A program made the translations under genes and the position numbers. A stretch of 33,334 nucleotides of DNA from Betaproteobacteria bacterium RIFCSPLOWO2_02_FULL_65_20 (GTDB taxonomy: Bacteria; Pseudomonadota; Gammaproteobacteria; Burkholderiales; SG8-39): contig MEQZ01000214.1 of NCBI GenBank assembly GCA_001770425.1, positions 3,588-36,921 on the forward strand, given 5' to 3'. Positions 5,834-25,379 of this stretch are shown in pieces (position 1 is the stretch's first letter; each line of letters opens with the position of its first letter). The notes under the pieces were generated by a model. The model did no database searches and was not told where the DNA came from. It saw nothing but the letters and a program-made list of their open reading frames with translations.

Positions 5834-5882
5834 GCACGCGACGCCGTAACCAACCGCATCGCCCGTTCCCGGCATCCCTCGA

Positions 5883-5924
5883 TCTCCCGATTTCGCGAAG
5901 TTGCAACTTCGCGAAATCGGGAGA
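5883..5924. repeat. Palindromic element copy A: perfect 42-bp palindrome TCTCCCGATTTCGCGAAGTTG/CAACTTCGCGAAATCGGGAGA
   Basis: Read directly; 21+21 nt perfect inverted repeat with no spacer, between convergent genes ending at 5833 and 6015. Confidence 0.95.
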
Positions 5925-6014
5925 CATAGAGAACCCCGGATTCGTCTCCGGCGCTGGCTGCACTTGAGTGGTAACGGACGGCCGTTTCAGCATCAACGGC
6001 CCCTGACTCGGCGC

Positions 6015-7733
6015 TCAGGACCCCGGTTTCGGCCGCTTGGCCTCGCCCTTGAGCGTGAAGCCGACCTTGCCCGGTTCGTTCGACGACAGCACGATCGAAT
6101 AGCCCGAGATCTCAGCCAGGCGCGCGGTCTGGTAAAGACCGATCCCGTAGCCGGCCTCCGACGGCACCGGCCCGCGAAGCAGCCCGTGCAGCACCCCCGG
6201 CGCGACCGCAATCCCGCTGTCGGTCACCGTCAGATCGATTGTGCCGCTGCACTCGAACCGTGCCCGTATTTTCACCGTGTCATCGAGCTTGGACTTGCGC
6301 AGGGCATTCTGCAGGAAGTTGTCCCCGGCGCTGTCGAAGAGTTCCTTCGGCAGCAATGTCGTGTCGTCGATCTCTCCGGTCTCGAAATCGATTCCCCGGT
6401 TCTGGTAGCCGCGCTGGAACGCGTCCCACCAGGCCTGCGCAGTGATGAACCGGCCGGTATCGCTATCCGGTTTCCTCAGCTTGTCCACGGTCTGCTGCAG
6501 GCGCTGCGCGATCACCGGCAGTTGTCTGCGCATGAGCGCCGACAGCACCGAGGCGTCTTGCTCCCGCTCTGCCGCCCCGCACAGCACGTTGAGCGACTGC
6601 AGCAGGTTCTTGACGTCGTGGGTCATGCGCGCGCCGGTCTCGTGCACGGCCTGCAGGTACGTCTGCTGCTGCAGCTTCTCCTCGCGCAGCTTGGCGACGT
6701 AGAACTCCCCGAGCATCTGCCCGAGCAGGTGAAAATGCCAGATCAGCGACGGCGAGATGGCCGAGCGCGTGAACACCCGCAGGTGCATCGCCTGATTGGT
6801 GTACTCGACCGAGTTCTTGGAGACCGTCCCGAAATCCCCCGACTCACCGGCGGTGTGCCAGAACCCCCCCGACACCCAGGGCAGCCGGGCAAGTCCGGCA
6901 CAGGCTTCCTTCAGGAACCGCTCGGGCCGGGCTTCCAGTTGCGAAAGCTCGGCGAGAAAATACAGCCATTGCTCGAAAGGCAGACCGATCGACAGCAGGT
7001 AGCGCGAGAAATACATCGACAGTCCGTGAAAACCGGCGCGCGGATTCCAGGCGAGCGACAAGAGCAGCAGGACCGCCGCTATGGCGAGCAGACTGTAGCT
7101 GAGCGCCTGCGCATACGGAGCGTTGCCGACACGCATGAACGCGAACGTCCCCAGCACCAGCACCATGAGCAGCAGGAAAATCATGGTCGAGTACAAAAAG
7201 TCGACGACCTGTGGCGTCTCTGACGATTCGGCCTCGGCAGGAATGACGGCCATGACCAGGAACAGCACCGGCAGGCCGTATTGGGCCAGCAACTGGATTT
7301 CGATTGGCAACCCTTTCCCCAGGAACGTGTTGGGCACGATCCACAGCAGCAGCAGCGCGATCAGGTAGAACAGCACGACCAGGTAAAAACGCTGCAGCCA
7401 CCGCGCCTGGAACAGGAACACTTTCCCGCCGACGATGCCGGCGAACACGCTGACCCACAGCGCCAGCAGCCACCAGTTGAGGAAAAACAGCGTCGCGACC
7501 GCGATCACGACCATGCCAACCAACTGGGCCGCGGTCAGGCGCTGCTCGCCGCGCATGAACGGCTGCCAGATGATGAACAGGCCGAAGTGTGCGAGCATGA
7601 GGGCCCGTGCCCACGGATCCCCTGCGCCGCGCATGGCCGACAGGTGCAGCACCACCAGCATCGTGAGAAACAGGATGCGCCAGAAGCGCGTGGTCACCAG
7701 CTGTGAGGCCTGAAGGAGCTTAGTGGTCGCCAT
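6015..7733 (-). CDS. Membrane sensor histidine kinase
   Basis: Many N-terminal TM helices. H-box-like TGARMTHDVKNLLQSLNVL, N-box-like GDNFLQNALRKS, and G-box-like VTDSGIAV...GYGIGLYQTARLAEISG. Confidence 0.85.
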   Translation of the reverse strand: MATTKLLQASQLVTTRFWRILFLTMLVVLHLSAMRGAGDPWARALMLAHFGLFIIWQPFMRGEQRLTAAQLVGMVVIAVATLFFLNWWLLALWVSVFAGIVGGKVFLFQARWLQRFYLVVLFYLIALLLLWIVPNTFLGKGLPIEIQLLAQYGLPVLFLVMAVIPAEAESSETPQVVDFLYSTMIFLLLMVLVLGTFAFMRVGNAPYAQALSYSLLAIAAVLLLLSLAWNPRAGFHGLSMYFSRYLLSIGLPFEQWLYFLAELSQLEARPERFLKEACAGLARLPWVSGGFWHTAGESGDFGTVSKNSVEYTNQAMHLRVFTRSAISPSLIWHFHLLGQMLGEFYVAKLREEKLQQQTYLQAVHETGARMTHDVKNLLQSLNVLCGAAEREQDASVLSALMRRQLPVIAQRLQQTVDKLRKPDSDTGRFITAQAWWDAFQRGYQNRGIDFETGEIDDTTLLPKELFDSAGDNFLQNALRKSKLDDTVKIRARFECSGTIDLTVTDSGIAVAPGVLHGLLRGPVPSEAGYGIGLYQTARLAEISGYSIVLSSNEPGKVGFTLKGEAKRPKPGS

Positions 7734-7736
7734 TCG

Positions 7737-7781
7737 TTGATCCCCTCGATCCCCTTGATCCGGTTGATCCTGTCGATCCGC
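7737..7781. repeat. Five tandem 9-bp units (TYGATCCNN) immediately upstream of the histidine kinase start
   Basis: TTGATCCCC-TCGATCCCC-TTGATCCGG-TTGATCCTG-TCGATCCGC read directly. Confidence 0.85.
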
Positions 7782-7908
7782 CCCGGATCCCAGCCAGCGT
7801 GCCCGAACCAGTGGCCCGTGGAGCTACCCGGTTCGCCGTTGCAGGCACGATTTATGCCATTATCAGCCGCATGATCGGCCTCGTGGTCAACCGCAAATCA
7901 ACCGCGCG

Positions 7909-8685
7909 ATGATGGCATTGAATTTCATATTCACCCTTGCCGGCGCCACGCTGCTCGAGGCGACTCGCAACCGCCTGTTCTGGCTCGCGGCAATCGTGGT
8001 CGGCGTCGCGCTCGGGCTGGCGCAGTTCCTCAACCAGGTGGCCATCACCGAGTCGATCGAGATCCAGCTGGCGCTGCTCGCCGCGCTGCTGCGCGTCGCG
8101 GCGGTTTTCATCGTGGCCACGTTCATCATCACCAGCATGGTACGCGAAGCGAACGACAAGGTCACCGAACTCATGCTGTCGCAGCCGGCGCCCCGGTCGA
8201 GCTATTTTCTGGGCAAGTTCGCCGGCTATGCGCTGGTGGCCGTGATTCTCGCGCTGGCCTTCGCGCTGCCCCTCGCCCTGTTCGCCCCCACGGCGGGCCT
8301 CGCGGCCTGGGCGGCCTCGCTGGTAGGCGAGCTGCTGATCGTCACCTCGGTGAGCCTGTTCTGTGTCATTTCGCTCACCCAGGTCCTCTCGGCATTCGCG
8401 GCCACCGCGGGATTCTATTTGCTCTCCCGCTCCATGGCGGCAATGCAGGTGATCGCCGGCGCGTCGCTGACCACCGAGCACACGTTTGCCGACACCGCCA
8501 TCAACTGGATCGTCGATGCGATCGCGCTGCTGCTGCCGAGTCTGGATCGAATGGCCCGGACCGACTGGCTCGTCAATGCCGGTCCGGGCATGGATGAGGC
8601 ACTGGGACTGGTCGCCCAGAGCGCCCTCTACATCGTGCTGATCGCCAGCGCAGCCCTGTTCGATCTGCATCGCAAGAACTATTAG
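7909..8685 (+). CDS. ABC-2-type transporter permease-like membrane protein
   Basis: 258 aa, six predicted hydrophobic segments, N-terminal TLLEATRNRLFW and MVREANDKVTELMLSQPAPRSSYFLGKF typical of ABC-2 permeases. No ATPase gene adjacent in the window. Confidence 0.65.
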   Translation: MMALNFIFTLAGATLLEATRNRLFWLAAIVVGVALGLAQFLNQVAITESIEIQLALLAALLRVAAVFIVATFIITSMVREANDKVTELMLSQPAPRSSYFLGKFAGYALVAVILALAFALPLALFAPTAGLAAWAASLVGELLIVTSVSLFCVISLTQVLSAFAATAGFYLLSRSMAAMQVIAGASLTTEHTFADTAINWIVDAIALLLPSLDRMARTDWLVNAGPGMDEALGLVAQSALYIVLIASAALFDLHRKNY

Positions 8686-8695
8686 GCCCCCGCCG

Positions 8696-9409
8696 ATGGC
8701 CGAGCGCGCGCTCACCGATGTCCCGAAGCTGGTGCTGGCAATGCTCGCCGGCGCCCTCGCGCTGCAGATTGGGCTGAAGCTGGCCCATCCGGTGGTGCCC
8801 CCTGCGGCGTCGGACCTGCGCCCGCCGCCCAGCCAGTCGAGTTTGCGCCTTGCGTCGTTGGGGGACCCGATCCCGCTTGCGAAGCTGCTGATGCTCTACC
8901 TGCAGAGCTTCGACTACCAGGCGGTGAATCGCATCCCCTTTCGGGACTTGAACTACGACACCGTGCAGCAATGGCTGCTGCGGGTCCTCTGGCTGGACCC
9001 GCGAGGTCAGTACCCACTTCTGGCTGCGAGCCGTCTGTATGCGGATGTCCCGGATGAGCCCAAGACCCGGCTGATGCTCGAATTCGTCTATCGGCAGTTC
9101 CTGGACGACCCGGACCGCCGCTGGCCCTGGCTGGCACACGCCGCCGCCGTGGCGAAGCATCGCCTGAAGGACCTGCCCCTGGCCAGGCGCTACGCCGCCG
9201 CCATCCAGCAGCACGCCGGCGGCCCCGATGTGCCCCTGTGGGCGAAGCAGATGGAAGTCTTCATCCTGGAGGACATGGACGAACTGGAGACCGCGCGGAT
9301 CATGATCGGCGGGTTCCTGTCCAGCGGGACCGTCCGCGATCCGGCTGAAATCCGCTTTCTGGACCAGCGGCTGCGGGATATTGAGGCACGTTTGAAGTCC
9401 AAGCGCTAA
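8696..9409 (+). CDS. Hypothetical protein with one N-terminal TM, possibly TPR-like
   Basis: Intact ORF directly following the permease. Helical composition with WLLRVLWLDPRGQYPLLAASRLYADV segments. Confidence 0.55.
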   Translation: MAERALTDVPKLVLAMLAGALALQIGLKLAHPVVPPAASDLRPPPSQSSLRLASLGDPIPLAKLLMLYLQSFDYQAVNRIPFRDLNYDTVQQWLLRVLWLDPRGQYPLLAASRLYADVPDEPKTRLMLEFVYRQFLDDPDRRWPWLAHAAAVAKHRLKDLPLARRYAAAIQQHAGGPDVPLWAKQMEVFILEDMDELETARIMIGGFLSSGTVRDPAEIRFLDQRLRDIEARLKSKR

Positions 9410-9526
9410 CTCCTCTGAAAATAAACGGAATGTCGTAATTCCGTCAGATTCGTCGGGTTTTCGACAAAGCCCACGCGAAAATAGCGTGAAATAGTGCACA
9501 AACGGGGTTTTTATGGATTTTGAACC

Positions 9527-9541
9527 GGGCATGCCTTTTGC
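9527..9541 (+). promoter_or_regulatory. Candidate sigma-54 (-24/-12) promoter for the downstream prepilin gene
   Basis: GGGCATGCCTTTTGC against consensus TGGCACGNNNNTTGC: 9 of 11 defined positions match, with GG and GC doublets separated by exactly 10 nt. Confidence 0.65.
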
Positions 9542-9581
9542 GTGATTGGTCGCCTGGCCCATTTGGCTGGAGGGGATAATC

Positions 9582-10301
9582 ATGAAACAGTTCGGCAAAC
9601 AGCAGGCAGGTTTCACGCTCGTCGAAATCGCGATCGTACTGGTGATCATCGGCTTGCTGCTCGGCGGCATCCTGAAAGGGCAGGAAATGATCACCCAGGC
9701 CAAGATCAAGAACCTTATCAACGACCTGAATGGCATCACCGCGGCCATGAACAGCTACCAGGACCGGTACCGGGCGATTGCAGGCGATGACAAGAATGCG
9801 GACACGCGCTGGGCCAACACTACCATTAGGGGCAACGGGGACGGTGTAGTTCAGGATCCCTACCTGCTTGTAACGACGATCCCGACCGCCACTCTTGCTG
9901 CTGGCGGGGCGGCATCGGCTACCGCCCCCGAGTCGAGTTTGTTCTGGCATCACCTCCGTCTGTCCGGCTTTGTCTCAGGTACCGGCGCGGACCAACCCTT
10001 TAACGCCTTGAGCGGGAAGATCGGCGTCCAGACCGGGGCCGGTCTCTCGACATCCGCGTCGCCGACCACCGCCCCCGGAGTGACGCTTAGCGGCTTTGGC
10101 GGACTGATCCTGTGCTCGGGCAATCTTCCTGACAAGGTCGCGATTTCGGTTGATGCGCAACTGGATGACGCCAGCGGCGCCACCGGCAGCGTGCGCGCCA
10201 TCGTTCAGTCAGGCCTACCCCCCACTTTGGATGCCAGCGCGGCAGCTACGACTTATGTGGAGACCGGCACTAACATCTACACGCTCTGCCGGCAACTGTA
10301 A
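9582..10301 (+). CDS. Type IV prepilin-like protein
   Basis: MKQFGKQQAGFTLVEIAIVLVIIGLLLGGILKGQEM is a canonical prepilin N-terminus. GGAGGGG SD at 9569-9575. Start at in-frame ATG 9582. Confidence 0.9.
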   Translation: MKQFGKQQAGFTLVEIAIVLVIIGLLLGGILKGQEMITQAKIKNLINDLNGITAAMNSYQDRYRAIAGDDKNADTRWANTTIRGNGDGVVQDPYLLVTTIPTATLAAGGAASATAPESSLFWHHLRLSGFVSGTGADQPFNALSGKIGVQTGAGLSTSASPTTAPGVTLSGFGGLILCSGNLPDKVAISVDAQLDDASGATGSVRAIVQSGLPPTLDASAAATTYVETGTNIYTLCRQL

Positions 10302-10321
10302 GCCAAGCCTGCATCAACCGA

Positions 10322-10348
10322 AAAAGGCCCGCTTCACGCGGGCCTTTT
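10322..10348 (+). terminator. Rho-independent terminator after the prepilin gene
   Basis: AAAAGGCCCGC-TTCAC-GCGGGCCTTTT, perfect 11-bp stem with T tract. Confidence 0.9.
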
Positions 10349-10469
10349 CTATTCGGGCGCTGTGGTCGAAAACCCGCCCGCAATTGCTTCGCTCGCCGCG
10401 CCCGGCTTCCGCAGGCTTTGCATTTCGCGCTCCCGGCACCGTCCGGCGGGACAAGGCGCGTGGCCGGGC

Positions 10470-11798
10470 CTATAACGCCGCCGCATCAATTTGCTGCATC
10501 GGTTTTGCCATGACAAGCAGCTTTCCGGCCTGCGCCTCGACCAGGCCGGCAATGCGAAGAACGAGCGCTCTCTCATCCCCTGCGTAGTCGCCCTCCGCGG
10601 CCAGGTGCGCAGCCTGCTTGGGCGCGGCGTGCGCCATTCGCGTCATTTCCCGGCCGAGAAACGAACGCTGAAGCCCCGCTCGTCTGGCGAAATCTGCCCA
10701 GGCGAAAGGGCTCACGTCGTCGAGTCTGAATTCGTCGCCGTAGGCCATGGCGAATTCATGGTCGAGCCCTTCGTATTGAACGGCGCTCACCAGGTCGTAG
10801 AACGGCGCGATGGCGAGTCCGTCAGCTCTGCAAAAGAAGGACACGTTCTTGCCATGGGCATCCGCGTTGCCGATGAGGTACTGCAATATTGCCCAACGCG
10901 TGAGCGCCTGGCGTGTCAAGGCCTTCTGCGCGGTGCAGGACACTGCCGTGGAGAACAGACGCTCGAAACTGACCCCATCCCGAATATGGCGAACGTCCTT
11001 GCCAGAACCGAAATTGCGTTCGTATTTGTAGGCAACCGGCAGGTCCAGCGCCTGGCATGCGTCGATAAGGTGAATCCGTCGCACGCTGTCGTCACCGGCT
11101 TCGCGGTCGAAGCGTCGTACCACAAGCACAGGATGCGGAACGCGCGCAATGCTGACTTCGGCGGTGCGAAGTCCCAATTGCGCCGCAAGACGCGTGCAAA
11201 AATGCTCGTTGGCAACCAGCCCCGGCAGTCGGCTGTCGAGGGGCTCGGGCTTCAGGATATGCGTGGAGGCCAGCGCGCCTTCGACAAGATAGAAGCGATT
11301 GTCTTTCACGTAGACAGGCAATTTGTCCTGATATCCGGCAATCGACATGCGTACGCGCCCGTCCCAGACTGCGAACGGCACCTGCGCGCGCTCCTCGATG
11401 CGGCGGCGCAGTTCATCAACGGGAATTTCCCTATAGGTCGTCGGGCGGGAGTCCGGGACCGTGCCCTCCGAAAGGAACGAGAACGCCCCGGAAGTCTCCC
11501 CTCCCAACTCGCGTACAAGCCCGAAAATGTTGTTTTTCGATACCTGATGTGTCGTCGAGACAATGTCAAGCGCCCGTCCTTCGGGCAAGAGATTCTCAAG
11601 AAAGCGACGCACGGTGCTCGATTCGACCTGTGTTCCCGACAGAGGAAAATGCGGGGATAAAGGGTAGGCGTTCCCGGTAGCGAACCAAGTGGGTTCGTAG
11701 GCAAAGGAGAAACGCTCTTCGAGGGAATCGTAGCCGATGGTGCCGACACGCTGTGCGGCATCGAACACCCATAGGCTGTGCTGGTTCACCGGACTCAT
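10470..11798 (-). CDS. hipA: HipA-like serine/threonine kinase toxin
   Basis: HipA hallmarks: MSIAGYQDKLPV, STHILKP, NEHFCTRLAAQLGL, VVRRFDRE, IGNADAHGKNVSF, APFYDLVSAV. Confidence 0.92.
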   Translation of the reverse strand: MSPVNQHSLWVFDAAQRVGTIGYDSLEERFSFAYEPTWFATGNAYPLSPHFPLSGTQVESSTVRRFLENLLPEGRALDIVSTTHQVSKNNIFGLVRELGGETSGAFSFLSEGTVPDSRPTTYREIPVDELRRRIEERAQVPFAVWDGRVRMSIAGYQDKLPVYVKDNRFYLVEGALASTHILKPEPLDSRLPGLVANEHFCTRLAAQLGLRTAEVSIARVPHPVLVVRRFDREAGDDSVRRIHLIDACQALDLPVAYKYERNFGSGKDVRHIRDGVSFERLFSTAVSCTAQKALTRQALTRWAILQYLIGNADAHGKNVSFFCRADGLAIAPFYDLVSAVQYEGLDHEFAMAYGDEFRLDDVSPFAWADFARRAGLQRSFLGREMTRMAHAAPKQAAHLAAEGDYAGDERALVLRIAGLVEAQAGKLLVMAKPMQQIDAAAL

Positions 11799-12091
11799 TT
11801 GCGCGCCTGCCGGCTGAGCGTCGCCAGAACCTGTGAAATTTCAAGCTTGTCGAGAATGAGCAAGGTCAGCCCTAGACCGTCGAGCACCTTGAACAGGCTC
11901 TTCGTCGTGACTCCGGAAGCGGCGTTTTCCAGGCGAGAGAGGACGGTCACCGATACTCCGCAAAGCGCGGCGGCGTCGTCGATTCGCAGGCCCGCAGCAA
12001 GGCGCTGGGCGCGCACCGCGCGCCCAAGCGCGCCCGCATCGGCTACTTGTGGAGTGGCGGGGATGGTTGGTTTTGGCAGTGCAGGTGGCAT
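11795..12091 (-). CDS. hipB: HipB-like XRE-family antitoxin
   Basis: 98 aa helix-turn-helix: LGRAVRAQRLAAGLRIDDAAALCGVSVTVLSRLENAASGVTTKSLFKVLDGLGLTL. Overlaps hipA by 4 nt (ATGA). Confidence 0.9.
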   Translation of the reverse strand: MPPALPKPTIPATPQVADAGALGRAVRAQRLAAGLRIDDAAALCGVSVTVLSRLENAASGVTTKSLFKVLDGLGLTLLILDKLEISQVLATLSRQARK

Positions 12092-12165
12092 AGTTTACTG
12101 AGACAAGTAATAACAAGTGGAGCTGGGCAGAATTACAGGATATATCCAATAAGCGTAAATATACG

Positions 12166-12360
12166 TTACATTCCTTCGCTAATCAATAGTGTTTCCACTA
12201 TTAGTAAACACTTGGATATCGGCGCTTCGGCCGGCAATGGCGGGTCAGGCGAAAGTTCCCTGTTCGGCAGTTCTCCACCGCGCGCCGGTGCATACGCCAT
12301 CGGCAGCATGATCAAGGAAGCGAGACGCTCGCGCGCCAGCAGGCCCGACCGATCCAACAA
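12166..12360 (-). CDS. Small hypothetical ORF or remnant between hipB and the O-antigen ligase-like gene
   Basis: MLDRSGLLARERLASLIMLPMAYAPARGGELPNREL...; the frame stays open upstream with a coiled-coil-like KDKEVARLEREVDALHLLDRS. No recognised family and start uncertain. Confidence 0.3.
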   Translation of the reverse strand: MLDRSGLLARERLASLIMLPMAYAPARGGELPNRELSPDPPLPAEAPISKCLLIVETLLISEGM

Positions 12361-12392
12361 ATGCAGAGCATCGACTTCCCGCTCAAGTCGCG

Positions 12393-14126
12393 CTACCTCT
12401 TTATCCTTGCAATGAGCGGGGCGATCGCCGCTTGATCGACCCTCTGCGCTCGCTGCAACAGCGCCACGGATTCCCGCAGCGCCTCGGGAGATGGGCGGGC
12501 CAGGCGATCGATGAGCCGGCCCGCTTCGTCCTCGCGCCCGTCCAGCGCCAGGAAAAACGCCCGCCGGCCGACGATCGCGTTGGAGGGAAAGTAATGCATG
12601 ACCCGCTCGCTCCAGCGCAGCTTCTGGGCGAGATTATCGCGATCGAGCGGCGCGCCGATGCAAAGCCAGAACTCTGCCATCGGTGCGAGCAGCCCGTGGC
12701 CGAGTCGGCCGAGAATTTCCGCTTCCCGCGTCGCGGTGGCGCCCGCCAGCGCGCTGCCCGCGCCCGTGATTCGCGTGAGATCGAGTCTCCAGTAGTCGCG
12801 CAAGCCCAGGACCAATATGCCGGCCATTACCGCGCAGGCCGTGGCGGCGGCGACGCGATGAAGCACCGCGCCTCCTTCCCCCGAGGTTCGTCCCGGGACG
12901 CCAGCCATCGTTCCCATCAGCAGCGCGGTGACGCCCAGAAAGTGCGCGCTCCACAGCGGGTATTCGAGCAGCGAATGAATCAGTTCGACCCCGGTGGCCG
13001 CGACGATCCACCACGTCGCGGGCTGCAGCGCCGCGCGATGGCGGTGCCAGGCCTGCCAGCACCACGCGCCGACCCCGGCCAGCACCAGCGCGGCCCCGAC
13101 CGCGCCGGTTTCGGCCAGCAGCTGCAGCACCTGATTGTGAGGCGAGGTCCAGACTTCGAACTTATCCGTCATTTCGCGAGGCAATCCGGCCTCGAATGCG
13201 GCGCCTGCGAATTCCCCGATGCCGACGCCGGCGATCGGCGCGCCGGCGAACAGCCGCAGCGCCAGCGTCCACGCCTGCCAGCGGATGTCGCCCAACGGGT
13301 TGAACACGCGATCGTCCACACCCGCCGGCCCCAGGCCCAACTCACGGTTGAACCAGGGCACGGCGACATAGGCCACCAGCAGGGCCGCCGCGAGCGCAAA
13401 CGCCGCCCCGCGCAACCGGCGCATGTCGCCCCCGCGGCCACCCTCGCGCTGCCGGCGCGCCGAGGCTGCGCCCAGCGCGGCAAACCACAGGACGTAGAGT
13501 AGCGCGGCGCGCGAATCCGACAGCGCGATGGCCCAGACGAGCAGCGCTGCCGCGCACCCCGTCAGAGCCCCGCCCGCGCGCCCGCTCGCCCACAGGTACA
13601 GCAGCGCTGCGGTGCCGAGCGCGAGATAGTTGGCATAGAGGCTCGACTGCGCGATGTTGCCGTAGGCGCGGATGCCGTGCAGATCGGCGACGAGGTCCTC
13701 CAGCCAGACCGGGCGGCCGTAGAACTGTATGACCCCTGCCGCCGCGTTGGCCAGCGCGCCGGCCAGAATGCATGCAGCCAGCACGCCGGCGGTCCTCTCC
13801 AGGCTCGTCGCGGTTACCAGGCAGGCGCCCAGCCAGATCATCAGCACCGCGTACAGCACATAGACGACGGCCCACAGCGACATCTGCGGATAGGCCGCAT
13901 CGCGCGCGACGGCGCACACGGCCAGAAACGCGGCGAAGCCGATCATCCAGCGCGCCGGAACCGGCAACGCGAGCGCCGGAAAACGCGGGCTCGCCAGCGC
14001 GGCGGCGAACGCGGCCAGACCGAGCGCCGCCGCCAGCCATTCCGGGTAGAAACTGCGCAGCGGGAACTGATGGTAGGGAATGAGAAACGGCAGCAGGCAC
14101 ATGGCGCCCGCGAGCAGCAGGCTCAC
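12393..14126 (-). CDS. O-antigen ligase / PglL-type O-oligosaccharyltransferase-like membrane protein
   Basis: Multi-TM with RAYGNIAQSSLYANYLALGTAAL, SDSRAA and FEVWTSPHNQVLQLLAETGAVG, typical of the Wzy/WaaL/PglL superfamily. Start ambiguous: GTG 14126 proposed because the longer ORF to 14321 overlaps the Kef gene. Confidence 0.8.
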   Translation of the reverse strand: MSLLLAGAMCLLPFLIPYHQFPLRSFYPEWLAAALGLAAFAAALASPRFPALALPVPARWMIGFAAFLAVCAVARDAAYPQMSLWAVVYVLYAVLMIWLGACLVTATSLERTAGVLAACILAGALANAAAGVIQFYGRPVWLEDLVADLHGIRAYGNIAQSSLYANYLALGTAALLYLWASGRAGGALTGCAAALLVWAIALSDSRAALLYVLWFAALGAASARRQREGGRGGDMRRLRGAAFALAAALLVAYVAVPWFNRELGLGPAGVDDRVFNPLGDIRWQAWTLALRLFAGAPIAGVGIGEFAGAAFEAGLPREMTDKFEVWTSPHNQVLQLLAETGAVGAALVLAGVGAWCWQAWHRHRAALQPATWWIVAATGVELIHSLLEYPLWSAHFLGVTALLMGTMAGVPGRTSGEGGAVLHRVAAATACAVMAGILVLGLRDYWRLDLTRITGAGSALAGATATREAEILGRLGHGLLAPMAEFWLCIGAPLDRDNLAQKLRWSERVMHYFPSNAIVGRRAFFLALDGREDEAGRLIDRLARPSPEALRESVALLQRAQRVDQAAIAPLIARIKR

Positions 14127-14175
14127 CGCGCCGTGCGTCGCGCCGCGATCGGGATGAGTGATGGCCGATCCCCTC

Positions 14176-16146: not shown

Positions 16147-16191
16147 CGCTAAGCCTTTGTCGCATGCGGAAAATCCGACGTAACCCTCTGG

Positions 16192-16197
16192 TATACT
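16192..16197 (+). promoter_or_regulatory. Extended -10 promoter candidate (TGGTATACT) for kdsD
   Basis: TGG-TATACT at 16189-16197 lies 6 nt before the kdsD ATG at 16204. Confidence 0.45.
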
Positions 16198-16203
16198 GGC
16201 CCT

Positions 16204-17220
16204 ATGATAACGGCTGCTCCCCGCGCCAACCACTCCGGCGTGCACCCTCGTGTCTCCGCCGCCGCACTGGAGCTCGCGCGCAAAGTGCTCTCTATCGAGG
16301 CCGAGGCGATTCTGGCGCTGATCCAACGGCTCGACGGGCAGTTTCTCGATGCGGCGAACCTGCTCCTAGCCTGCAGCGGGCGCGTGGTCGTCTCCGGGAT
16401 CGGCAAGTCCGGCCACATCGCCCGCAAGATCGCCTCCACCATGGCGAGCACTGGAACACCCGCCTTCTTCGTGCATCCTGCCGAGGCAAGCCACGGGGAT
16501 CTGGGCATGATCCAGAGCGACGACGTGCTGATTGCGCTGTCGTACTCGGGTGAATCGGCCGAACTGCTCACCATCATCCCGGTCATCAAGCGCGAGGGTG
16601 CCAAACTCATCGCCATCACCGGAAACGACTCCTCCACCCTCGCACGGCAGGCCGATGTGCACCTGGACGCGCGCGTCGCGCAGGAAGCCTGCCCGCTCAA
16701 CCTGGCGCCCACCGCCAGCACGACGGCCGCGCTCGCGCTGGGGGACGCGCTCGCGATCGCGCTGCTGGACGCGCGCGGATTCAGCGAGCGTGATTTCGCC
16801 GGCAAGCATCCGGGCGGCGCGCTCGGCCGCAGGCTGCTTACCCTGGTGTCCGACGTGATGCGCACCGGCGAGGACGTGCCGCGCGTTCCCGACACGGCGA
16901 CGCTGTCCGAGGCGCTGATCGAGATGTCCCGCAAGGGCATGGGCATGACCGCGGTTCTCGACGCGCAGGCCCGGGTTGCGGGCATTTTCACCGATGGCGA
17001 CCTGCGCCGCGCGCTCGAGCGCGTCGGCGACATCCGCTCGGCGCGCATCGCCGAACTGATGGGACGCAGCCCGCGCACGATCGCCGCAGACAAGCTCGCC
17101 GCCGAGGCCGCGCAACTCATGGAGCGCCACAAGATCAGCCAGCTGCTCGTTGTAACTGCAGATGGAAGGCTTGCCGGGGCGCTGAACACGCACGACCTGT
17201 TCAGGGCAAAGGTCATCTGA
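16204..17220 (+). CDS. kdsD: Arabinose-5-phosphate isomerase (KpsF/GutQ family, SIS + CBS)
   Basis: GRVVVSGIGKSGHIARKIASTMASTGTPAFFVHPAEASHGDLGM, GKHPGGALGRRL, CBS pair. Followed by kdsC-lptCAB. Confidence 0.95.
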   Translation: MITAAPRANHSGVHPRVSAAALELARKVLSIEAEAILALIQRLDGQFLDAANLLLACSGRVVVSGIGKSGHIARKIASTMASTGTPAFFVHPAEASHGDLGMIQSDDVLIALSYSGESAELLTIIPVIKREGAKLIAITGNDSSTLARQADVHLDARVAQEACPLNLAPTASTTAALALGDALAIALLDARGFSERDFAGKHPGGALGRRLLTLVSDVMRTGEDVPRVPDTATLSEALIEMSRKGMGMTAVLDAQARVAGIFTDGDLRRALERVGDIRSARIAELMGRSPRTIAADKLAAEAAQLMERHKISQLLVVTADGRLAGALNTHDLFRAKVI

Positions 17221-17222
17221 GC

Positions 17223-17759
17223 ATGGATGGGAACACCGGCGACGCGGCCGAGCGGGCGCGGAGCATCAAGCTCATGATTTTCGACGTCGACGGCGTGCTC
17301 ACCGACGGCCGGCTGTATCTCTCGGACAACGGCGAAGAGATGAAGGCGTTCAATACGCGCGACGGACAGGGCATCAAATTGCTGCGCGAAAGCGGCATTG
17401 CGGTGGGAGTGATCACCGCGCGCAGCTCGCGCGTGGTCGAGCGCCGCGCCAGGGAACTTGGCATTGAGTTGCTGCGCCAGGGAGCCGCCGACAAGGCAGG
17501 CGCGTTCGCCGAACTGCTTTCGGGGCAGAAACTCCAGGCGAGCGAGGCGGGCTACATGGGTGACGACCTTGCCGACCTGCCGGTGCTCATACGCTGCGGC
17601 TTCGCGGCCAGCGTGCCCTCCGCGCCCGAGGCGGTGCGCACCCGCGCCCACTACGTGGCGCGGGCCGCGGGCGGCGAAGGCGCAGCGCGCGAAGTGTGCG
17701 AATTCATCCTGATGGCTCAAAATGCCCTCGAACACGCGATTGCACGTTATCTCGCATGA
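17223..17759 (+). CDS. kdsC: 3-deoxy-D-manno-octulosonate 8-phosphate phosphatase
   Basis: IKLMIFDVDGVLTDGRLYLSDNGEEMKAFNTRDGQGIKLL HAD motif, GYMGDDLADLPVL. Confidence 0.95.
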   Translation: MDGNTGDAAERARSIKLMIFDVDGVLTDGRLYLSDNGEEMKAFNTRDGQGIKLLRESGIAVGVITARSSRVVERRARELGIELLRQGAADKAGAFAELLSGQKLQASEAGYMGDDLADLPVLIRCGFAASVPSAPEAVRTRAHYVARAAGGEGAAREVCEFILMAQNALEHAIARYLA

Positions 17760-17769
17760 AGATCCGCGC

Positions 17770-18342
17770 ATGAAGATCCGAGTGGCCAACCTGCTGCCGA
17801 TCACGCTGATGCTGTTCCTGGCAGCGCTGACCCTATGGCTGCGTATCACGATGGAAACACCAGCCAGCAGCGGCAACGGCAGTCATCGCCACGACCCCGA
17901 TGCGATCGTCGACAACTTCGAGGTGGTCCGGCTGGACGATCAGGGCGCGGCGCAATATACGCTCACTGCGAACCGGATGATCCATTTCGGCGACGACGAT
18001 TCGACCGAGCTTGCGGGGCCGCGGGTGGTCAAGCTGGGCGCAGGCCCGAGGGTCACCATCACCGCCGAACGCGGCACCGTCACCCGCGATGGCGCCGAAG
18101 CGTTCTTTCACGGCAACGTGCTGGTGGTGCGGGCAGCCACGCCCGAGCGCGAGGAACTGCGCGTGCGCACCGACTACCTCCATGTGCTCGCCGAGCGGAA
18201 CATCGCGCGCACCGACCGGGCGGTGACCATCACCGAAGGGCGATCGGTGCTATCGGGCGTAGGCATGGAATTCGACGAGAACGCGCGCCGGTTTGCGCTT
18301 CTTTCCCAGGTGAGAGGCCGCTTTGACCAGCCCAGGAAATAA
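17770..18342 (+). CDS. lptC: LPS export protein LptC
   Basis: MKIRVANLLPITLMLFLAALTLWLRI TM, then HDPDAIVDNFEVVRLDDQGAAQYTLTANRMIHF. Syntenic position. Confidence 0.9.
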   Translation: MKIRVANLLPITLMLFLAALTLWLRITMETPASSGNGSHRHDPDAIVDNFEVVRLDDQGAAQYTLTANRMIHFGDDDSTELAGPRVVKLGAGPRVTITAERGTVTRDGAEAFFHGNVLVVRAATPEREELRVRTDYLHVLAERNIARTDRAVTITEGRSVLSGVGMEFDENARRFALLSQVRGRFDQPRK

Positions 18343-18922
18343 TGTGCTCCGGATCCTGATCGCGCTGGCGCTGGTGCTCGCATTGCCTGCCCGCGCCGAG
18401 CGGGCCGATCGCGACAAGCCGGTGAACATCGATTCGGACCGCATGAATGCCGACGATGCGCAGAAGACCGCGGTCTTCGACGGGCGCGTGGTGCTCACCC
18501 AGGGCACGCTGCTCATCCGCGCAGACCGCCTCACCGTGCGCCAGGACAGCGAAGGCTTCCAGTCTGCGACCGCGCTGGGAAAGCCGGCCACGTTCCGGCA
18601 AAGACGCGAAGGTCTGGACGAATACATCGACGGCGAGGCCGAGCGCATCGAATACGACGGGCGCGCAGACCGGGTGCAGCTGTTCAACGGCGCACGGATT
18701 CGCCGCGACGGCGGTGACGACGTGCGCGGCAGCATCATTTCCTACGACTCGAAGACCGAATTCTTCAGCGTGCAGTCGGCCAAGGACGCATCCCCGCAGA
18801 GCCGCGACGCCCGCGTGCGGGCGGTGATCATGCCCAAGAAGAAGGAGGGGAGCGGCATCGCACCTGCGGCGCCGCTCGAACTCAAGCCTGCGCCCGCCAT
18901 CGCAGCACCGCGCCAGGACTAG
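18323..18922 (+). CDS. lptA: LPS transport periplasmic protein LptA
   Basis: Signal peptide, [45 protein letters not shown]. Start is TTG 18323 or alternatively GTG 18344. Confidence 0.9.
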
Positions 18923-19025
18923 TGGCTTATACAGGTCATATCGGCAGCGACGCAGGGCGGCATTCCAATGCCGCCAAAGGCGCCGCGCACGACCGCGCCA
19001 CCGCCATGATCGGCGCGTTCCCGCG

Positions 19026-19748
19026 ATGAGCCGGCTGAGGACCGACACCCTGAAAAAGCGCTACAAATCGCGCGTGGTGGTCAAGGATGTCTCGCTGGAA
19101 GTGTCCAGCGGGGAGATTGTAGGCCTGCTCGGCCCCAACGGCGCCGGCAAGACGACCTGTTTCTACATGATCGTCGGGCTGGTCGCGGTGGACGGCGGCC
19201 GGATCTTCGTCGACGACCGCGACATCAGCCGCATGCCCATGCACCGGAGAGCCCGCCTGGGCCTGTCCTACCTGCCCCAGGAGGCCTCCGTATTCCGCAA
19301 GCTCACCGTCGAGGAGAATATCCGGGCGGTACTCGAACTGCAGGGTCTCGCCGAGGCCGAAATCCTGGAGCGCCTTCAGCAGCTGCTGCACGATCTGAGC
19401 ATCGCCCACCTGCACCATGCGACCGCCTTGTCGCTCTCGGGCGGGGAGCGCCGGCGGGTCGAGATTGCGCGCGCGCTGGCGACACAGCCCAGCTTCATTC
19501 TTCTGGACGAGCCCTTCGCCGGGGTCGATCCGATCGCCGTGCTGGACATCCAGCGCATCATCCGGTTTCTGAAGGAGCGCTCGATCGGCATCCTCATCAC
19601 CGACCACAACGTGCGCGAAACCCTGGGCATCTGCGACCGCGCCTACATCATCAACGACGGCTCGGTGCTCGCATCCGGCGACCCGGATGAAATCGTCCAA
19701 AATGAAAGTGTGCGCCGGGTCTATCTCGGCGAACACTTCAGGCTCTGA
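19026..19748 (+). CDS. lptB: LPS export ABC transporter ATP-binding protein
   Basis: Walker [10 protein letters not shown], signature [31 protein letters not shown]. LptB-specific [18 protein letters not shown]. Confidence 0.96.
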
Positions 19749-19841
19749 CATCATGATGCCAGCCTGCCGCGAGGCCCCAGTTCAACGTTCGCAGCGTCGG
19801 CAACGCTGCGCTGCCAACCGCGGCTCGCATCCTCGCGTGAC

Positions 19842-21284
19842 ATGAAACAGGCCCTGCAACTCAGGCTTACGCAGCATCTCACGCTGACGCCACAGCTGCA
19901 GCAGTCGATCCGGCTGCTGCAGCTGTCGACGATGGAGCTGAACCAGGAGCTTGAGAAATTCCTGATGGAAAACCCGCTGCTGGAAAAAGAGGATGCGGAG
20001 ACCGAGGCGCAGCCTGTCGGGCCCATCTTTCCGGCCCCGGCCGCCGAAGGCGAATCGCCTTCGGCGGCGGAAGCGCCCTCCGAGGCGCCGTCCGAGGAAA
20101 CAGGCGCGCAGACCGAGATCGACTGGTACAACGACGCGCCTGCATCGGGCGGCGGACGGGACGACGCCGAGGACTCCGACTATCCCCAGGTCGCCGCCGA
20201 ATCACCCAGCCTGCGCGAACACCTGCTGGCCCAGGTTTCGCTGACGAACATCGAGCCTCGGGACCGCCGGCTGGTCGAGCTTCTCATCGATGCCCTCGAA
20301 GAGAATGGCTACCTGACAATGCCGCTCGAGGAACTGGCCGAACTGATTCCGTCCGAACTCGGCGTGGAGCCCGACGAACTCCAGATCGCGCTGCGCAACC
20401 TGCAGAGCCTCGACCCCACCGGGGTCGGCGCGCGCAACGCACAAGAGTGCCTCGAACTTCAGCTCGTCGCGCTTCCCGAGGAGGCACCCGGCCGGACGCG
20501 GGCCCTGGCGATCGTCAGGCGGCATCTTGCCCTGCTCGCCGCGCATGACTTCGCGCGCCTGAAAAAGGCGCTGAACTGCACGGACGACCAGCTTCGCCAG
20601 GCGCAACAACTGATTCAGACGCTCAATCCGCACCCGGGCGCCGAATTCACGTCGTTCGAGACGAGCTATATCGTGCCCGATGTCATCGTAAGAAAGGCGA
20701 AGAACGTCTGGGTCGCCGGCCTCAACCAGGATGCAGTGCCCAAGCTGCGGATCAACCGGATGTACGCCGACATACTGCAGAACAACCGCGGCGACTCGGG
20801 CGGCCAGCTTTCGCAGAGGCTGCAGGAGGCGCGCTGGCTGATCAAGAACGTGCAGCAGCGCTTCGAGACGATCCTGCGCGTGTCGCAGGCGATCGTCGAC
20901 CGGCAGCGCCAGTTCCTCGAGCACGGTGAGGTCGCGATGCGCCCGCTGGTGCTGCGCGATATCGCCGAGACGCTAGGCCTGCACGAATCGACCGTCTCGA
21001 GGGTGACCACCCAGAAGTTCATGCGCACGCCGCGCGGCATTTTCGAACTCAAGTACTTTTTCGGCAGCCACGTCGCCACCGATGCGGGCGGCGCCTGTTC
21101 GGCGACGGCGATCCGCGCCCTGATCAAGCAGCTGATCGCCGCCGAGGAACCGAAAAAGCCGCTGTCCGACAGCAAGATCTCGCAGATACTGGGTCAGCAG
21201 GGCATCGTCGTGGCCCGCCGCACGATCGCAAAATACCGGGAGTCGCTGCATATCCCGCCGGTCAATCTGCGCAAGAGCCTGTAA
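19842..21284 (+). CDS. rpoN: RNA polymerase sigma-54 factor
   Basis: MKQALQLRLTQHLTLTPQLQQSIRLLQLSTMELNQELE; RpoN box VVARRTIAKYRESLHIPP. Confidence 0.97.
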   Translation: MKQALQLRLTQHLTLTPQLQQSIRLLQLSTMELNQELEKFLMENPLLEKEDAETEAQPVGPIFPAPAAEGESPSAAEAPSEAPSEETGAQTEIDWYNDAPASGGGRDDAEDSDYPQVAAESPSLREHLLAQVSLTNIEPRDRRLVELLIDALEENGYLTMPLEELAELIPSELGVEPDELQIALRNLQSLDPTGVGARNAQECLELQLVALPEEAPGRTRALAIVRRHLALLAAHDFARLKKALNCTDDQLRQAQQLIQTLNPHPGAEFTSFETSYIVPDVIVRKAKNVWVAGLNQDAVPKLRINRMYADILQNNRGDSGGQLSQRLQEARWLIKNVQQRFETILRVSQAIVDRQRQFLEHGEVAMRPLVLRDIAETLGLHESTVSRVTTQKFMRTPRGIFELKYFFGSHVATDAGGACSATAIRALIKQLIAAEEPKKPLSDSKISQILGQQGIVVARRTIAKYRESLHIPPVNLRKSL

Positions 21285-21365
21285 TTCAGGCGCAGGGTTC
21301 AATCTTCCTTTTTCCAACCCGGTCGAGAAGGAACCAAACAGCTTGGCTCGCTCTGGAATCCACAA

Positions 21366-21415
21366 TCTCCCGATTTCGGGAAGTTGCAACTTCGCAACTT
21401 CCCGAAATCGGGAGA
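21366..21415. repeat. Palindromic element copy B: 22-bp perfect arms, 6-nt loop AACTTC
   Basis: TCTCCCGATTTCGGGAAGTTGC-aacttc-GCAACTTCCCGAAATCGGGAGA, between rpoN and ptsN. Confidence 0.95.
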
Positions 21416-21558
21416 CGTATGCAAACCCCAATTCTTCCCCAGCGCTTCGCTGGCCGTTTGCGCTGCTGCCAAAACGTGTAGAATTGCGCCCCTGAGCGGC
21501 CTGCGAACCTCGTGGTGCACCGGGTCATGGCACTGGTTCCGGATCGCTCGCCCCGCCA

Positions 21559-22044
21559 ATGAACCTCATCGCCAAACTCCTTCCCCCGTCGAACATCCTT
21601 CTGGATCTGGATGTCACCAGCAAGAAGCGCATGTTCGAGCAGGCCGGCCTGCTGTTCGAGAACAACCAGGGCATAGGGCGCAGCGTCGTGTTCGACAGCC
21701 TGTTCGCGCGCGAGCGCCTGGGCTCTACGGGTCTGGGCCAGGGCGTGGCCATTCCGCATGGCAGGATCAAGGGGCTGAAAGATGCCGTCGGCGCGTTCGT
21801 GCGCCTGGCTTCCCCGGTTGCCTTCGACTCACCCGACGGCAAGCCGGTGAATCTCGTGTTCTTCCTGCTGGTACCCGAGCATGCGACCGAACGGCACCTG
21901 CAGATCCTCTCGGAACTGGCGCAGTTGTTCTCCGACCGCGAACTGCGGGAGCGGCTCGCGACCGAAAGCGACCCGGGAAGCCTTCATCAGACCATCACCG
22001 CGTGGCAACCCCATGTTGCAGATCAGCGTCGCGCAGCTTCATGA
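21559..22044 (+). CDS. ptsN: Nitrogen PTS EIIA (PtsN)
   Basis: LLPPSNILLDLDVTSKKRMFEQAG; LGSTGLGQGVAIPHGRIKGL (EIIA active His); syntenic with rpoN/hprK. Confidence 0.94.
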   Translation: MNLIAKLLPPSNILLDLDVTSKKRMFEQAGLLFENNQGIGRSVVFDSLFARERLGSTGLGQGVAIPHGRIKGLKDAVGAFVRLASPVAFDSPDGKPVNLVFFLLVPEHATERHLQILSELAQLFSDRELRERLATESDPGSLHQTITAWQPHVADQRRAAS

Positions 22045-22951
22045 CGACAATCGCGAGAAGCTGGGGCTGGCCTGGCTCGCAGGCCGCTCCGGCGCCGCGG
22101 CGTTGGTGCGCCGCGACACGGCGGATGGCGCAGCGCTGGTCGGCCACCTCAACCTGATTCACCCCAATCGCATCCAGGTAATAGGCAGCCACGAGACCGC
22201 CTATCTGGCCTCGTACGACGCGAGCGCGTTCGGACAACTCCTGGCCAATCTGTTGGCCGCGCGTCCGTCGGCGATCATTATCGCCGACGGCATTGTCCCG
22301 GATCCGCGTCTCATCGAATCGGCCGAAAATGCCGGCACGGCCGTGTTCGGCTCGCCCCGGACGGCGGCCCAGGTCATCGAGCACCTGCGCCATGTCCTCG
22401 CCAAGACGCTTGCGGAAATGACTTCGCTCCACGGCGTGTTCATGGACGTGCTCGGGCTCGGAGTCCTCATCACCGGCGACTCCGGCGTCGGAAAAAGCGA
22501 ACTCGCGCTTGAATTGATCAGCCGCGGCCACGGCCTGGTAGCCGACGACGTGGTCGAGATTTCACGCATCGCGGCGTCCGCCCTCGAAGGCCGCTGCCCG
22601 CCGCTGCTCAAGGATTTCCTGGAGGTGCGCGGTCTGGGCGTGCTCAATATCCGCACCATATTCGGCGAGACAGCCGTGCGCTCGAAAATGAACCTGAAGT
22701 TGATCGTGCAACTTCAGCGCCCGCCGCAGGCGGGCGCCCTGGAAACCGAGCGCCTGCCTCTGCACGAGATCTCCGAGGACATACTGGGGATCACGGTTCG
22801 CAAGGTCATGATCCCCGTGGCCGCGGGCAGGAACCTCGCCGTGCTGCTGGAGGCCGCGGTGCGCAACTGCATCCTGCAGCTGCGCGGCATCCACTCGATG
22901 CATGAGTTCCTCACTCGCCAGCGCGCGGAGTTGGACAAGAACGGCGGTTAG
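22013..22951 (+). CDS. hprK: HPr kinase/phosphorylase
   Basis: GVLITGDSGVGKSELALELISRGHGLVADD Walker A; overlaps ptsN. Confidence 0.95.
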   Translation: MLQISVAQLHDDNREKLGLAWLAGRSGAAALVRRDTADGAALVGHLNLIHPNRIQVIGSHETAYLASYDASAFGQLLANLLAARPSAIIIADGIVPDPRLIESAENAGTAVFGSPRTAAQVIEHLRHVLAKTLAEMTSLHGVFMDVLGLGVLITGDSGVGKSELALELISRGHGLVADDVVEISRIAASALEGRCPPLLKDFLEVRGLGVLNIRTIFGETAVRSKMNLKLIVQLQRPPQAGALETERLPLHEISEDILGITVRKVMIPVAAGRNLAVLLEAAVRNCILQLRGIHSMHEFLTRQRAELDKNGG

Positions 22952-23005
22952 TTACTTATGTCTCGGCACTTGACAGAGCCGGCGCACAACCGGGGTTTAT
23001 ATTGG

Positions 23006-23055
23006 TCTCCCGATTTCGGGAAGTTGCGCAGTTGCAACTTCCCGAAATCGGGAGA
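23006..23055. repeat. Palindromic element copy C (inverted orientation by flanks): 22-bp perfect arms, loop GCAGTT
   Basis: TCTCCCGATTTCGGGAAGTTGC-gcagtt-GCAACTTCCCGAAATCGGGAGA, between hprK and rapZ. Confidence 0.95.
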
Positions 23056-23116
23056 TGATGTACGCCAAGACAAGCCAGGCTTTCTGGTTCCAACTCCCCC
23101 GGCTTGAGCTCATCGA

Positions 23117-23956
23117 ATGCAACTGGTCCTGGTCAGCGGGCTGTCCGGCTCGGGCAAGAGCATCGCGCTCAATGTCCTGGAGGACAGCGGCTACTACTGC
23201 GTCGACAATCTGCCGGTCAAGCTGCTGCAGGAAACCGTGCAGCTGCTGCGCGATGCGGGAAACGCGCGTGTCGCGATGAGCATCGACGCGCGCAGCGGCG
23301 GCTCGCTCGCCCTCATCCCCGGCTACCTCGAGAACCTCAAGGCCCAGGGCGTCGATGTGCGCCTGCTGTTCCTCGATGCCACAGATCACGCGCTCATAAG
23401 GCGCTTTTCGGAGACCCGCCGCCGCCATCCGCTCGCACGGGGCAACATCACGCTCGAGGAGTGCCTGACGCGCGAGCGCGACCTGCTTTCCCCGATCGCC
23501 GAGGTGGGCCATCGCATCGACACGAGCGAGTTGCATCCCAACGCCCTGCGCACCTGGATTCGCGACCTGCTCGACGTCGACCCGCGGAGCATCGTGCTGC
23601 TGTTCGAATCGTTCGCATACAAGCAGGGCATTCCGCTGGATGCCGATCTGGTGTTCGACGTCCGCTGCCTGCCGAACCCTTTTTACGATCCCCGGCTGCG
23701 GCCGATGAGCGGCCTGCACCCGGATGTGGCGGGCTTTCTGGAGCGGGAACCGCAGGTCGGCAAGATGCTGGCCGACATACGCGACTTCGTGGCAACCTGG
23801 CTGCCGGCCTACACCGGCGACAACCGCAGCTATCTGACCGTGGCGATCGGCTGCACCGGCGGCCAGCACCGCTCGGTGTACTTCGTCGAGAAGCTCGCCG
23901 CCCATTTCCGCGCGCTCACATCGGTGGTGGTTCGGCACCGCAATCTGGCTGCATGA
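23117..23956 (+). CDS. rapZ: RNase adapter protein RapZ
   Basis: MQLVLVSGLSGSGKSIALNVLEDSGYYCVDNLPV; FKQGIP-like YKQGIPLDADLVFDVRCLPNPFY; IGCTGGQHRSVYFVE. Confidence 0.97.
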   Translation: MQLVLVSGLSGSGKSIALNVLEDSGYYCVDNLPVKLLQETVQLLRDAGNARVAMSIDARSGGSLALIPGYLENLKAQGVDVRLLFLDATDHALIRRFSETRRRHPLARGNITLEECLTRERDLLSPIAEVGHRIDTSELHPNALRTWIRDLLDVDPRSIVLLFESFAYKQGIPLDADLVFDVRCLPNPFYDPRLRPMSGLHPDVAGFLEREPQVGKMLADIRDFVATWLPAYTGDNRSYLTVAIGCTGGQHRSVYFVEKLAAHFRALTSVVVRHRNLAA

Positions 23957-24030
23957 ATGACGGCGGCACCTGAGTCCTATAGACAGTGCTGTCGCATGGC
24001 GCCGGTGAACTTGCGCGCGGCGCGCGCCAA

Positions 24031-24075
24031 CCGTGTTTTCCGCGCGGATGAAAAACATCCGCACGGAAGACACGG
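24031..24075. repeat. Long imperfect hairpin (20-bp arms, 2 mismatches, AAAAA loop)
   Basis: CCGTGTTTTCCGCGCGGATG-AAAAA-CATCCGCACGGAAGACACGG. Confidence 0.85.
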
Positions 24076-24117
24076 TTCGAGTTAAAGGCAAAGACATCCT
24101 TCGGGTTCTATACAAGA

Positions 24118-25218
24118 TCACCGATTGCGTACGGATGGCTTTTCATCCGTGCGCAATCGGCGATCCGCGCCCACGGCTTCTTGTCCGCGCAACATCGCAA
24201 GCAGCTTTTTCACCGGCACCGGCACCCCGGCCTGCCTCGCCTGCTCCAGGTCGAACCACGCCGTTCCGGGCTGCCCGGCGCGCGGCATGAGCCGACTGAC
24301 TTCGCATCGGCAGGGCCGGATGTCGAGCGTGAAATGGGTGAAGGCGTGGCGCAACGGCTGGAGGGCGAGCGGCTTGCCGACCTCGCATCCGAGCCGTGCA
24401 GCGCAATGCGCCCGCAGCTCGCCGTCAGCCGGCATTTCCGGAAACGACCACAGTCCGCCCCAGATGCCTGACGGGGGACGCTGCTCCAGAAGGATCTTGC
24501 CCTGGCGCATGAGCAGCAGCATCACCACCGAACGCACCGGCGTCGTCCTGCGCGGCCGGCGCACCGGATAGGCCGCCACGCTCCCACCGGCAAGCGCCGC
24601 GCAGCTCGAGGCAAGCGGACAGCGCCCACAGCCGGGCGATGCCCGCGTGCAAACCGTTGCGCCCAGATCCATCAGCGCCTGCGTATAGGTCTGGACGCCC
24701 CGCTTGGGCACCAGGGATTCGGCAAGCGACCAGAGCACGTTCTCCACCGCCTTGTTCGCCGTGAGTCCGCCCACCGCAAAATGCCGCGCGAGTACGCGCT
24801 TCACATTGCCGTCCAGAATCGCCTCGCGCGCGCCGAACGCAAACACGGCGATGGCCGCAGCCGTCGAGCGTCCGACGCCGGGAAGCGCTTGGAGCTCGAT
24901 GCGTTGTTCCGGGAACACCCCGTGATGCTCATCGAGAATCGCCCTTGCGGCCCGGTGCAGATTGCGCCCCCTCGAGTAGTAGCCCAGGCCCGCCCAAAGG
25001 CGCAGCACGTCCTCCAGTGATGCCCGGGCGAGGCTAGTCACGTTCGGGAAGCGCGCTCGAAACCGCTCGTAATAGGGAATGACCGTGCCGACCTGGGTCT
25101 GCTGCAGCATGACCTCCGACAGCCATATCGGGTATGGATCCCGCGTCCGCTGCCAGGGCAGATCGTGGCGGCCGTGACGCCGGTGCCAGGTGATGAGTCT
25201 CCTGGAAAAATCCTTCAT
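24118..25218 (-). CDS. mutY: A/G-specific adenine glycosylase
   Basis: DLPWQRTRDPYPIWLSEVMLQQTQVGTVIPYYERF; LPGVGRSTAAAIAVFAFGAREAILDGNVKRVLARHF; FeS Cys cluster CTRASPGCGRCPLASSC. Start at MKDFSRR. Confidence 0.95.
   Translation of the reverse strand: MKDFSRRLITWHRRHGRHDLPWQRTRDPYPIWLSEVMLQQTQVGTVIPYYERFRARFPNVTSLARASLEDVLRLWAGLGYYSRGRNLHRAARAILDEHHGVFPEQRIELQALPGVGRSTAAAIAVFAFGAREAILDGNVKRVLARHFAVGGLTANKAVENVLWSLAESLVPKRGVQTYTQALMDLGATVCTRASPGCGRCPLASSCAALAGGSVAAYPVRRPRRTTPVRSVVMLLLMRQGKILLEQRPPSGIWGGLWSFPEMPADGELRAHCAARLGCEVGKPLALQPLRHAFTHFTLDIRPCRCEVSRLMPRAGQPGTAWFDLEQARQAGVPVPVKKLLAMLRGQEAVGADRRLRTDEKPSVRNR
24121..24160. repeat. Second hairpin (17-bp arms, 1 mismatch) overlapping the 3' end of mutY
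   Basis: CCGATTGCGTACGGATG-GCTTTT-CATCCGTGCGCAATCGG; shares the apical CGGATG/CATCCG stem with the 24031 hairpin. Confidence 0.85.
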
Positions 25219-25296
25219 GGCAACGACCTGCGGAAACGCTTCATCCGCGGTCACTAAGCCGAACCCAAACGGGCGGGCTCGCTTCGGCATCCATCA

Positions 25297-25346
25297 TCTC
25301 CCGATTTCGGGAAGTTGCAATTTCGCAACTTCCCGAAATCGGGAGA
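25297..25346. repeat. Palindromic element copy D: 22-bp perfect arms, 6-nt loop AATTTC
   Basis: TCTCCCGATTTCGGGAAGTTGC-aatttc-GCAACTTCCCGAAATCGGGAGA, upstream of mutY. Confidence 0.95.
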
Positions 25347-25379
25347 CTCATGTAAACCCAAGATCTTCGCCAATCGCGG

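Follow-up and report, generated by a model that had tools for sequence, protein, structure and literature searches.

An intergenic, directional palindromic repeat of about 165 bp, restricted to one family of betaproteobacteria and probably mobile

Here we describe a dispersed repeat, directional and intergenic, that is built around a long perfect hairpin, occurs in about 145 copies in its source genome and is restricted to one taxonomic family. As far as our literature searches show, this repeat family is undescribed, and it is of the dispersed palindromic or miniature mobile type. We consider it probable that its units form a non-autonomous, REP/MITE-like mobile family of about 165 bp with CTAA/TTAG edges, a central 22-bp perfect hairpin and no terminal inverted repeats. 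The repeat was met in a window of 33,334 nucleotides (by the window we mean the whole stretch of DNA analysed) from a MAG of 3.59 Mb in 257 contigs that is 87% complete (G000); its relatives by hprK are betaproteobacterial MAGs, two of which (G047 and G049) belong to the same genus.

A preliminary description of the window had reported four palindromes, and a palindrome search recovered them at exactly those places: 5883-5924 (copy A), 21366-21415 (copy B), 23006-23055 (copy C) and 25297-25346 (copy D). The arm pattern TCTCCCGATTTCGNGAAGTTG has eight exact matches in the window, making up four inverted pairs, where 100 dinucleotide shuffles gave an expectation of 0. Both flanks are conserved beyond the hairpin and the flank motifs named earlier are real. 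Oriented by its flanks, copy C indeed points the opposite way to A, B and D; the unit size of some 100-110 bp proved too small, the actual unit being about 165 bp long. Scored with covariance model R1, copy A occupies 5823-5984 on the plus strand (121 bits; G000:C214:9410-9571) and has a short-loop hairpin, its perfect palindrome being shorter (42 bp), with the loop essentially absent and the GGAACCA block degenerate. Copy B (21307-21475, plus strand, 142 bits) has 22-bp arms and the 6-nt loop AACTTC, and lies between rpoN (19842-21284, plus strand, by Pfam) and an open reading frame at 21559. Copy C (22946-23114, minus strand, 150 bits) fills the gap from the TAG stop of hprK (22949-22951; gene by Pfam) to an ATG at 23117, the terminal TTAG of the unit being the hprK stop itself. 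In copy D, with loop AATTTC, the model match runs over 25238-25406 on the plus strand (132 bits) and the unit over 25238-25379, as the distal right flank is absent: the next gene (at 25380, minus strand; gene edge from a codon model) has its TAG stop about 33 nt after the hairpin, and this stop forms the right end.

The anatomy of the unit was drawn from 66 distinct copies of the source genome, together with an alignment (A1) of 49. A left flank of about 58 bp (CCTAAGCCGGacaAGCCGGAACCAAACgG..tGGCTCGtTTTGgcTTTCATCA) is followed by the central hairpin with its 22-bp arms (consensus TCTCCCGATTTCGGGAAGTTGC-loop-GCAACTTCCCGAAATCGGGAGA) and by a right flank, also of about 58 bp (CcTATATAAACCCAAATTCTTCGCCAGATCTGTCAACACTTGAGTCGTAAGAGACTAA). 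Its boundaries, CCTAA|GCCGG on the left and GTAAGNGACTAA on the right, are common to several genera, with CTAA at both edges and conservation ending outside them. The two ends (CCTAAGCCGG on the left, GTAAGNGACTAA on the right) do not form an inverted repeat, and RNAalifold predicted no stem other than the central one and one spurious outer pair. Coincidence between left and right surroundings, taken as a test of target-site duplication, was weak (best z of 4.2 among several hundred windows), and variants of the CTAA edge showed no clear co-variation within copies. Degenerate runs of heptamers (type ATCCTGA/ATCCTAA) border many copies in G049 (L175, L179, L182, L185 and L192), and the CTAA edge of these copies could fall within the runs. 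Units also occur in tandem with a different stem in each copy (L024; L130 6233-6491; L138 1941-2110).

The repeat is not confined to four copies with unconserved flanks. Model R1, built from the source genome, gave 149 matches there, four being second-strand matches of listed copies, which leaves about 145 copies as a lower bound (150 candidates were scored); their flanks are conserved, bearing out the view of an oriented dispersed family whose hairpin is embedded in a longer directional unit. Matches at E <= 0.001 turned up in 24 of the 98 genomes examined from its taxonomic family; three congeners and three members of a second genus were among them, with many full-length matches, the number per genome being a lower bound. 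In the case of the order, 300 genomes were sampled, ten of them in the same family, and none of the other 290 had a match. Two members of a short-loop subfamily, L204 1128-1289 in G048 and L182 1945-2106 in G049, share up to 92% identity while their flanking genes are unmatched, hinting at recent activity or transfer.

Copies keep strictly to the spaces between genes: with our simple purpose-made codon-model caller, no gene was found to contain any of the 135 copies considered, which came from five genome groups. Relative to the orientation of the element, the flanking genes were arranged -- at 60 copies, ++ at 35, +- at 25 and -+ at 11. The 3' end of the right-hand gene lay 70-79 nt from the hairpin centre, that is, at the element edge, in 35 of 85 cases, and its stop codon was TAG in 42 of the 68 cases with a gene end within 110 nt; TAG ends 147 of 422 called genes (35%) in the same loci, the tested cases included. 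On the other side, 18 of 139 copies have TAGG or TAAGG at the left edge, read outward, with an ATG or GTG following at Shine-Dalgarno distance, and many copies fill a same-strand intergenic gap from the upstream stop codon to the downstream start region. Very stable hairpins that often stand beside gene ends might be taken for bidirectional transcription terminators that have been multiplied. We regard this as most improbable, because the flank consensus on the two strands (CCTATATAAACCC and TGATGAAAGCC) lacks a T-run directly after the hairpin, divergent and co-directional gene pairs also have copies between them, and a terminator has no need of long conserved directional flanks.

This placement geometry suggests a model in which units insert at TTAG sites of the stop/Shine-Dalgarno type. 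A trans-acting enzyme directed to TTAG/CTAA would insert the unit at stop codons or stop/Shine-Dalgarno junctions, leaving TTAG on both sides and hence both adjoining genes intact, and the structure it recognises would be the hairpin, in the form of a cruciform or of folded single-stranded DNA. Among Y1-type genes, the only kind looked at, no autonomous partner or transposase was found. The family would add to the known repeats a lineage-restricted mobile element whose CTAA/TTAG edge often falls on stop codons, possibly a means of entering tightly spaced gene arrays while leaving the genes unbroken.

That the family has moved follows from its empty sites. The site of copy C is too short to hold the unit in five genomes (G047, G048, G001, G002 and G017) and that of copy D in six (the same five and G049), these calls being made on the gap between the flanking aligned genes, with lengths from BLAST coordinates and with G003, which has longer gaps, left out. 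By parsimony, copies C and D were gained in the lineage of the source genome. Other copies are held in common: those at L012/L211 and L156 in G000 stand at the same site and in the same orientation as L214 and L198 in G047, respectively, and L254 in G047 is orthologous to L274 in G048. Probably orthologous too are L147 in G000 and L201 in G047, with the hairpin broken by an assembly gap, and L132 in G000 and L225 in G083, a genome of another genus. At three sites the orientation is opposite in another species (copy B against L278 in G049, L009 against L219 in G003, and L255 against L190).

Functional RNA structure is ordinarily proved by covariation, which is strong here. The typical arms differ between species, being TCTCCCGATTTCGGGAAGTTGC in G000, TCTCCCGATTTCGGACCGTTGC in G047, TCTCGTGTTTTCGTGCAGTTGC in G048 and TCTCCCCTTTTCGTGCAGTTGC in G049, with a further stem type, TCCCGTCAATTTGTAAAGTTGC, in G001-G003. 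Nonetheless pairing between the two arms of a copy reaches 96-99% in G000, G047, G048 and G049; exchanging right arms at random among the copies of one genome lowers it to 72-89%. At three clear orthologous sites, with flank identities of 0.38-0.55, four, four and eight arm positions differ, and all 16 have changed on both sides and are still Watson-Crick pairs, with no one-sided change; compared with the genome consensus, the arms showed 254 both-sided paired changes versus 62 one-sided ones.

Such a pattern would be produced by a functional RNA or intercistronic regulatory element (an RNase III site, an mRNA stabiliser or an attenuator) in which selection for pairing brings about the compensatory changes; the many copies that span same-strand gene gaps from stop codon to start region, and the persistence of orthologous copies, speak in the same direction. 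We nevertheless find this reading unlikely, since the genes around the copies take all four arrangements, so that neither strand is consistently transcribed, occupied sites differ between close relatives, one and the same site can carry the element in opposite orientations, and one-sided changes, G-U intermediates included, are scarce. Nor is a named structured RNA supported, the preliminary description having seen a resemblance to a structured-RNA element: the Rfam 15 family models gave no match in the window at their gathering scores, and under relaxed thresholds the relatives yielded only sub-threshold matches of miRNA models to the perfect hairpins.

Loops bear on the same question. They are mostly 5-6 nt long (about 2 nt in the G049 subfamily), and G000 has them in either orientation with respect to the flanks: AACTTC 13 times, GAAGTT eight times, and several further reverse-complement pairs. 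Homogenisation of arms together with inversion of the spacer is the signature of template switching described in yeast (PMC8604942), which by analogy may be carried over to the source bacterium. Because the loops in both orientations and the homogenised arms make up this signature, we do not take the covariation to prove an RNA function; the both-sided changes and loop flips point to DNA-level copying of arm to arm as much as to selection on RNA, the two being inseparable by sequence alone. Loop sequences repeat the apex of the arm, and slippage could therefore yield some of them. The stems also appear to evolve in concert: mid-arm identity is 0.85 within G000 and 0.59 to G049 at an equal flank identity of about 0.48, although stem uniformity in G000, G049 and G015 is partly a matter of ascertainment, many copies having been picked by stem pattern; copies selected with the covariance model agree in direction. 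The flank comparison rests on multiple alignments, gapped pairwise flank identity having been discarded as no higher than that of shuffled flanks.

Under the mobile-repeat reading, replication template switching after insertion would copy arm onto arm and flip the loop, so that the palindrome stays perfect even as its sequence diverges into types particular to each species. Whether the hairpins are kept perfect mainly by such a DNA process (recurrent arm-to-arm template switching, or exchange of hairpin cassettes between copies) and not by selection on RNA is a proposal that we put forward tentatively, giving it somewhat less than an even chance. If it were true, both arms would be rewritten and the loop flipped in one step, compensatory double changes would arise by mutation, and the hundreds of orthologous and paralogous copies would be a natural record of a pattern usually taken as proof of functional RNA. 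In any event, the repeat is not obviously an RNA, and its large natural set of hairpins, with extreme covariation, few one-sided intermediates and two loop orientations, can serve to gauge the extent to which selected structure is mimicked by DNA template switching.

A second dispersed repeat lies in the window at 23985-24200 and consists of two long hairpins (AACCGTGTTTTCCGCGCGGATG.. and GATCACCGATTGCGTACGGATG..) about 90 bp apart. It has 24 matches in the source genome and dozens in G015, G017 and G049, and it stands next to hprK in other betaproteobacterial MAGs, with its stem differences compensated (L036 6142-6465, L041 6111-6251, L045 8209-8547, L048 6587-6724 and L053 6049-6099); at L045, 8288-8349 gave a weak R1 match. 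Adjoining the second of its hairpins is TTGTATAGAACCC (minus strand), and since this resembles the TATATAAACCC found next to the hairpins of the present family, the two families may be related.

Placing the repeat among known systems requires weighing whether a RAYT (Y1 HUH) transposase mobilises it as a REP/REPIN system whose tag is unusual and replaces GTAG. REPs with perfect palindromes do exist (group 3), and RAYT cleaves at a CT next to the hairpin (PMC8266576), a dinucleotide contained in the CTAA edges. There are two Y1 genes in the source genome, and RAYT-type (Y1) genes in 62 of the 98 family genomes, with no obvious relation to the element by eye. CGTC stands at the right foot of the hairpin in 63 of 139 copies, two of its bases lying within the stem. 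Against these points, GTAG occurs within 12 nt of either hairpin foot in only two of 139 copies, and none of the 15 Y1/RAYT gene regions examined, from nine genomes, includes a copy of the unit. One Y1 (RAYT-like) gene of the source genome, at L031, is followed by a different palindrome (GGGGACAGACCACG..CGTGGTCTGTCCCC, 2148-2200); this gene adjoins a small toxin-antitoxin-like pair and an assembly gap. The 22-bp arms, moreover, compare with stems of 5-13 bp in GTAG REPs and of 8-9 bp, with loops of 4-5 nt, in CGTC REPs (PMC3733652; for the GTAG unit and stem ranges also PMC8266576). We judge RAYT mobilisation to be quite improbable, and of the REP/MITE-like label proposed earlier the link to REP and RAYT finds no support, and the MITE part holds only loosely for a unit that has no terminal inverted repeats.

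Returning to the mobile repeat that we favour, it has in common with the GTAG and CGTC REPs, BIMEs and REPINs that all are intergenic palindromes of high copy number, and with the CGTC REPs, which have no dedicated transposase (PMC3733652), that none was found among the Y1-type genes examined. It differs from them in its unit of about 165 bp instead of 20-50 nt, flanks conserved on both sides, no GTAG, a stem of 22 bp instead of 5-13, and orthologous copies kept with rewritten stems. The BRE of Bordetella is likewise betaproteobacterial, intergenic and sometimes tandem, but it is set apart by its description, with about 90 bp, 69% GC and at most 29 copies (PMC3110155), and R1 had no match in the 290 genomes of other families of the order. 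MITEs such as Correia/NEMIS, too, are short, non-autonomous and intergenic, lie near gene ends and can form hairpins once transcribed; unlike them, the present unit is without terminal inverted repeats and its palindrome is central, not terminal. No named family was found to match, in keeping with the preliminary description, which had recognised none. Another relevant system is bcr1 of the Bacillus cereus group, a chromosomal, intergenic, directional, foldable and mobile repeat of about 155 bp for which we know of no transposase. Taken by its description, bcr1 is set apart by its other lineage, its different target-site motif (TTTAT) and, to our knowledge, the lack of a long perfect central hairpin, and is alike in size, intergenic placement, direction, foldability and mobility without a known transposase.
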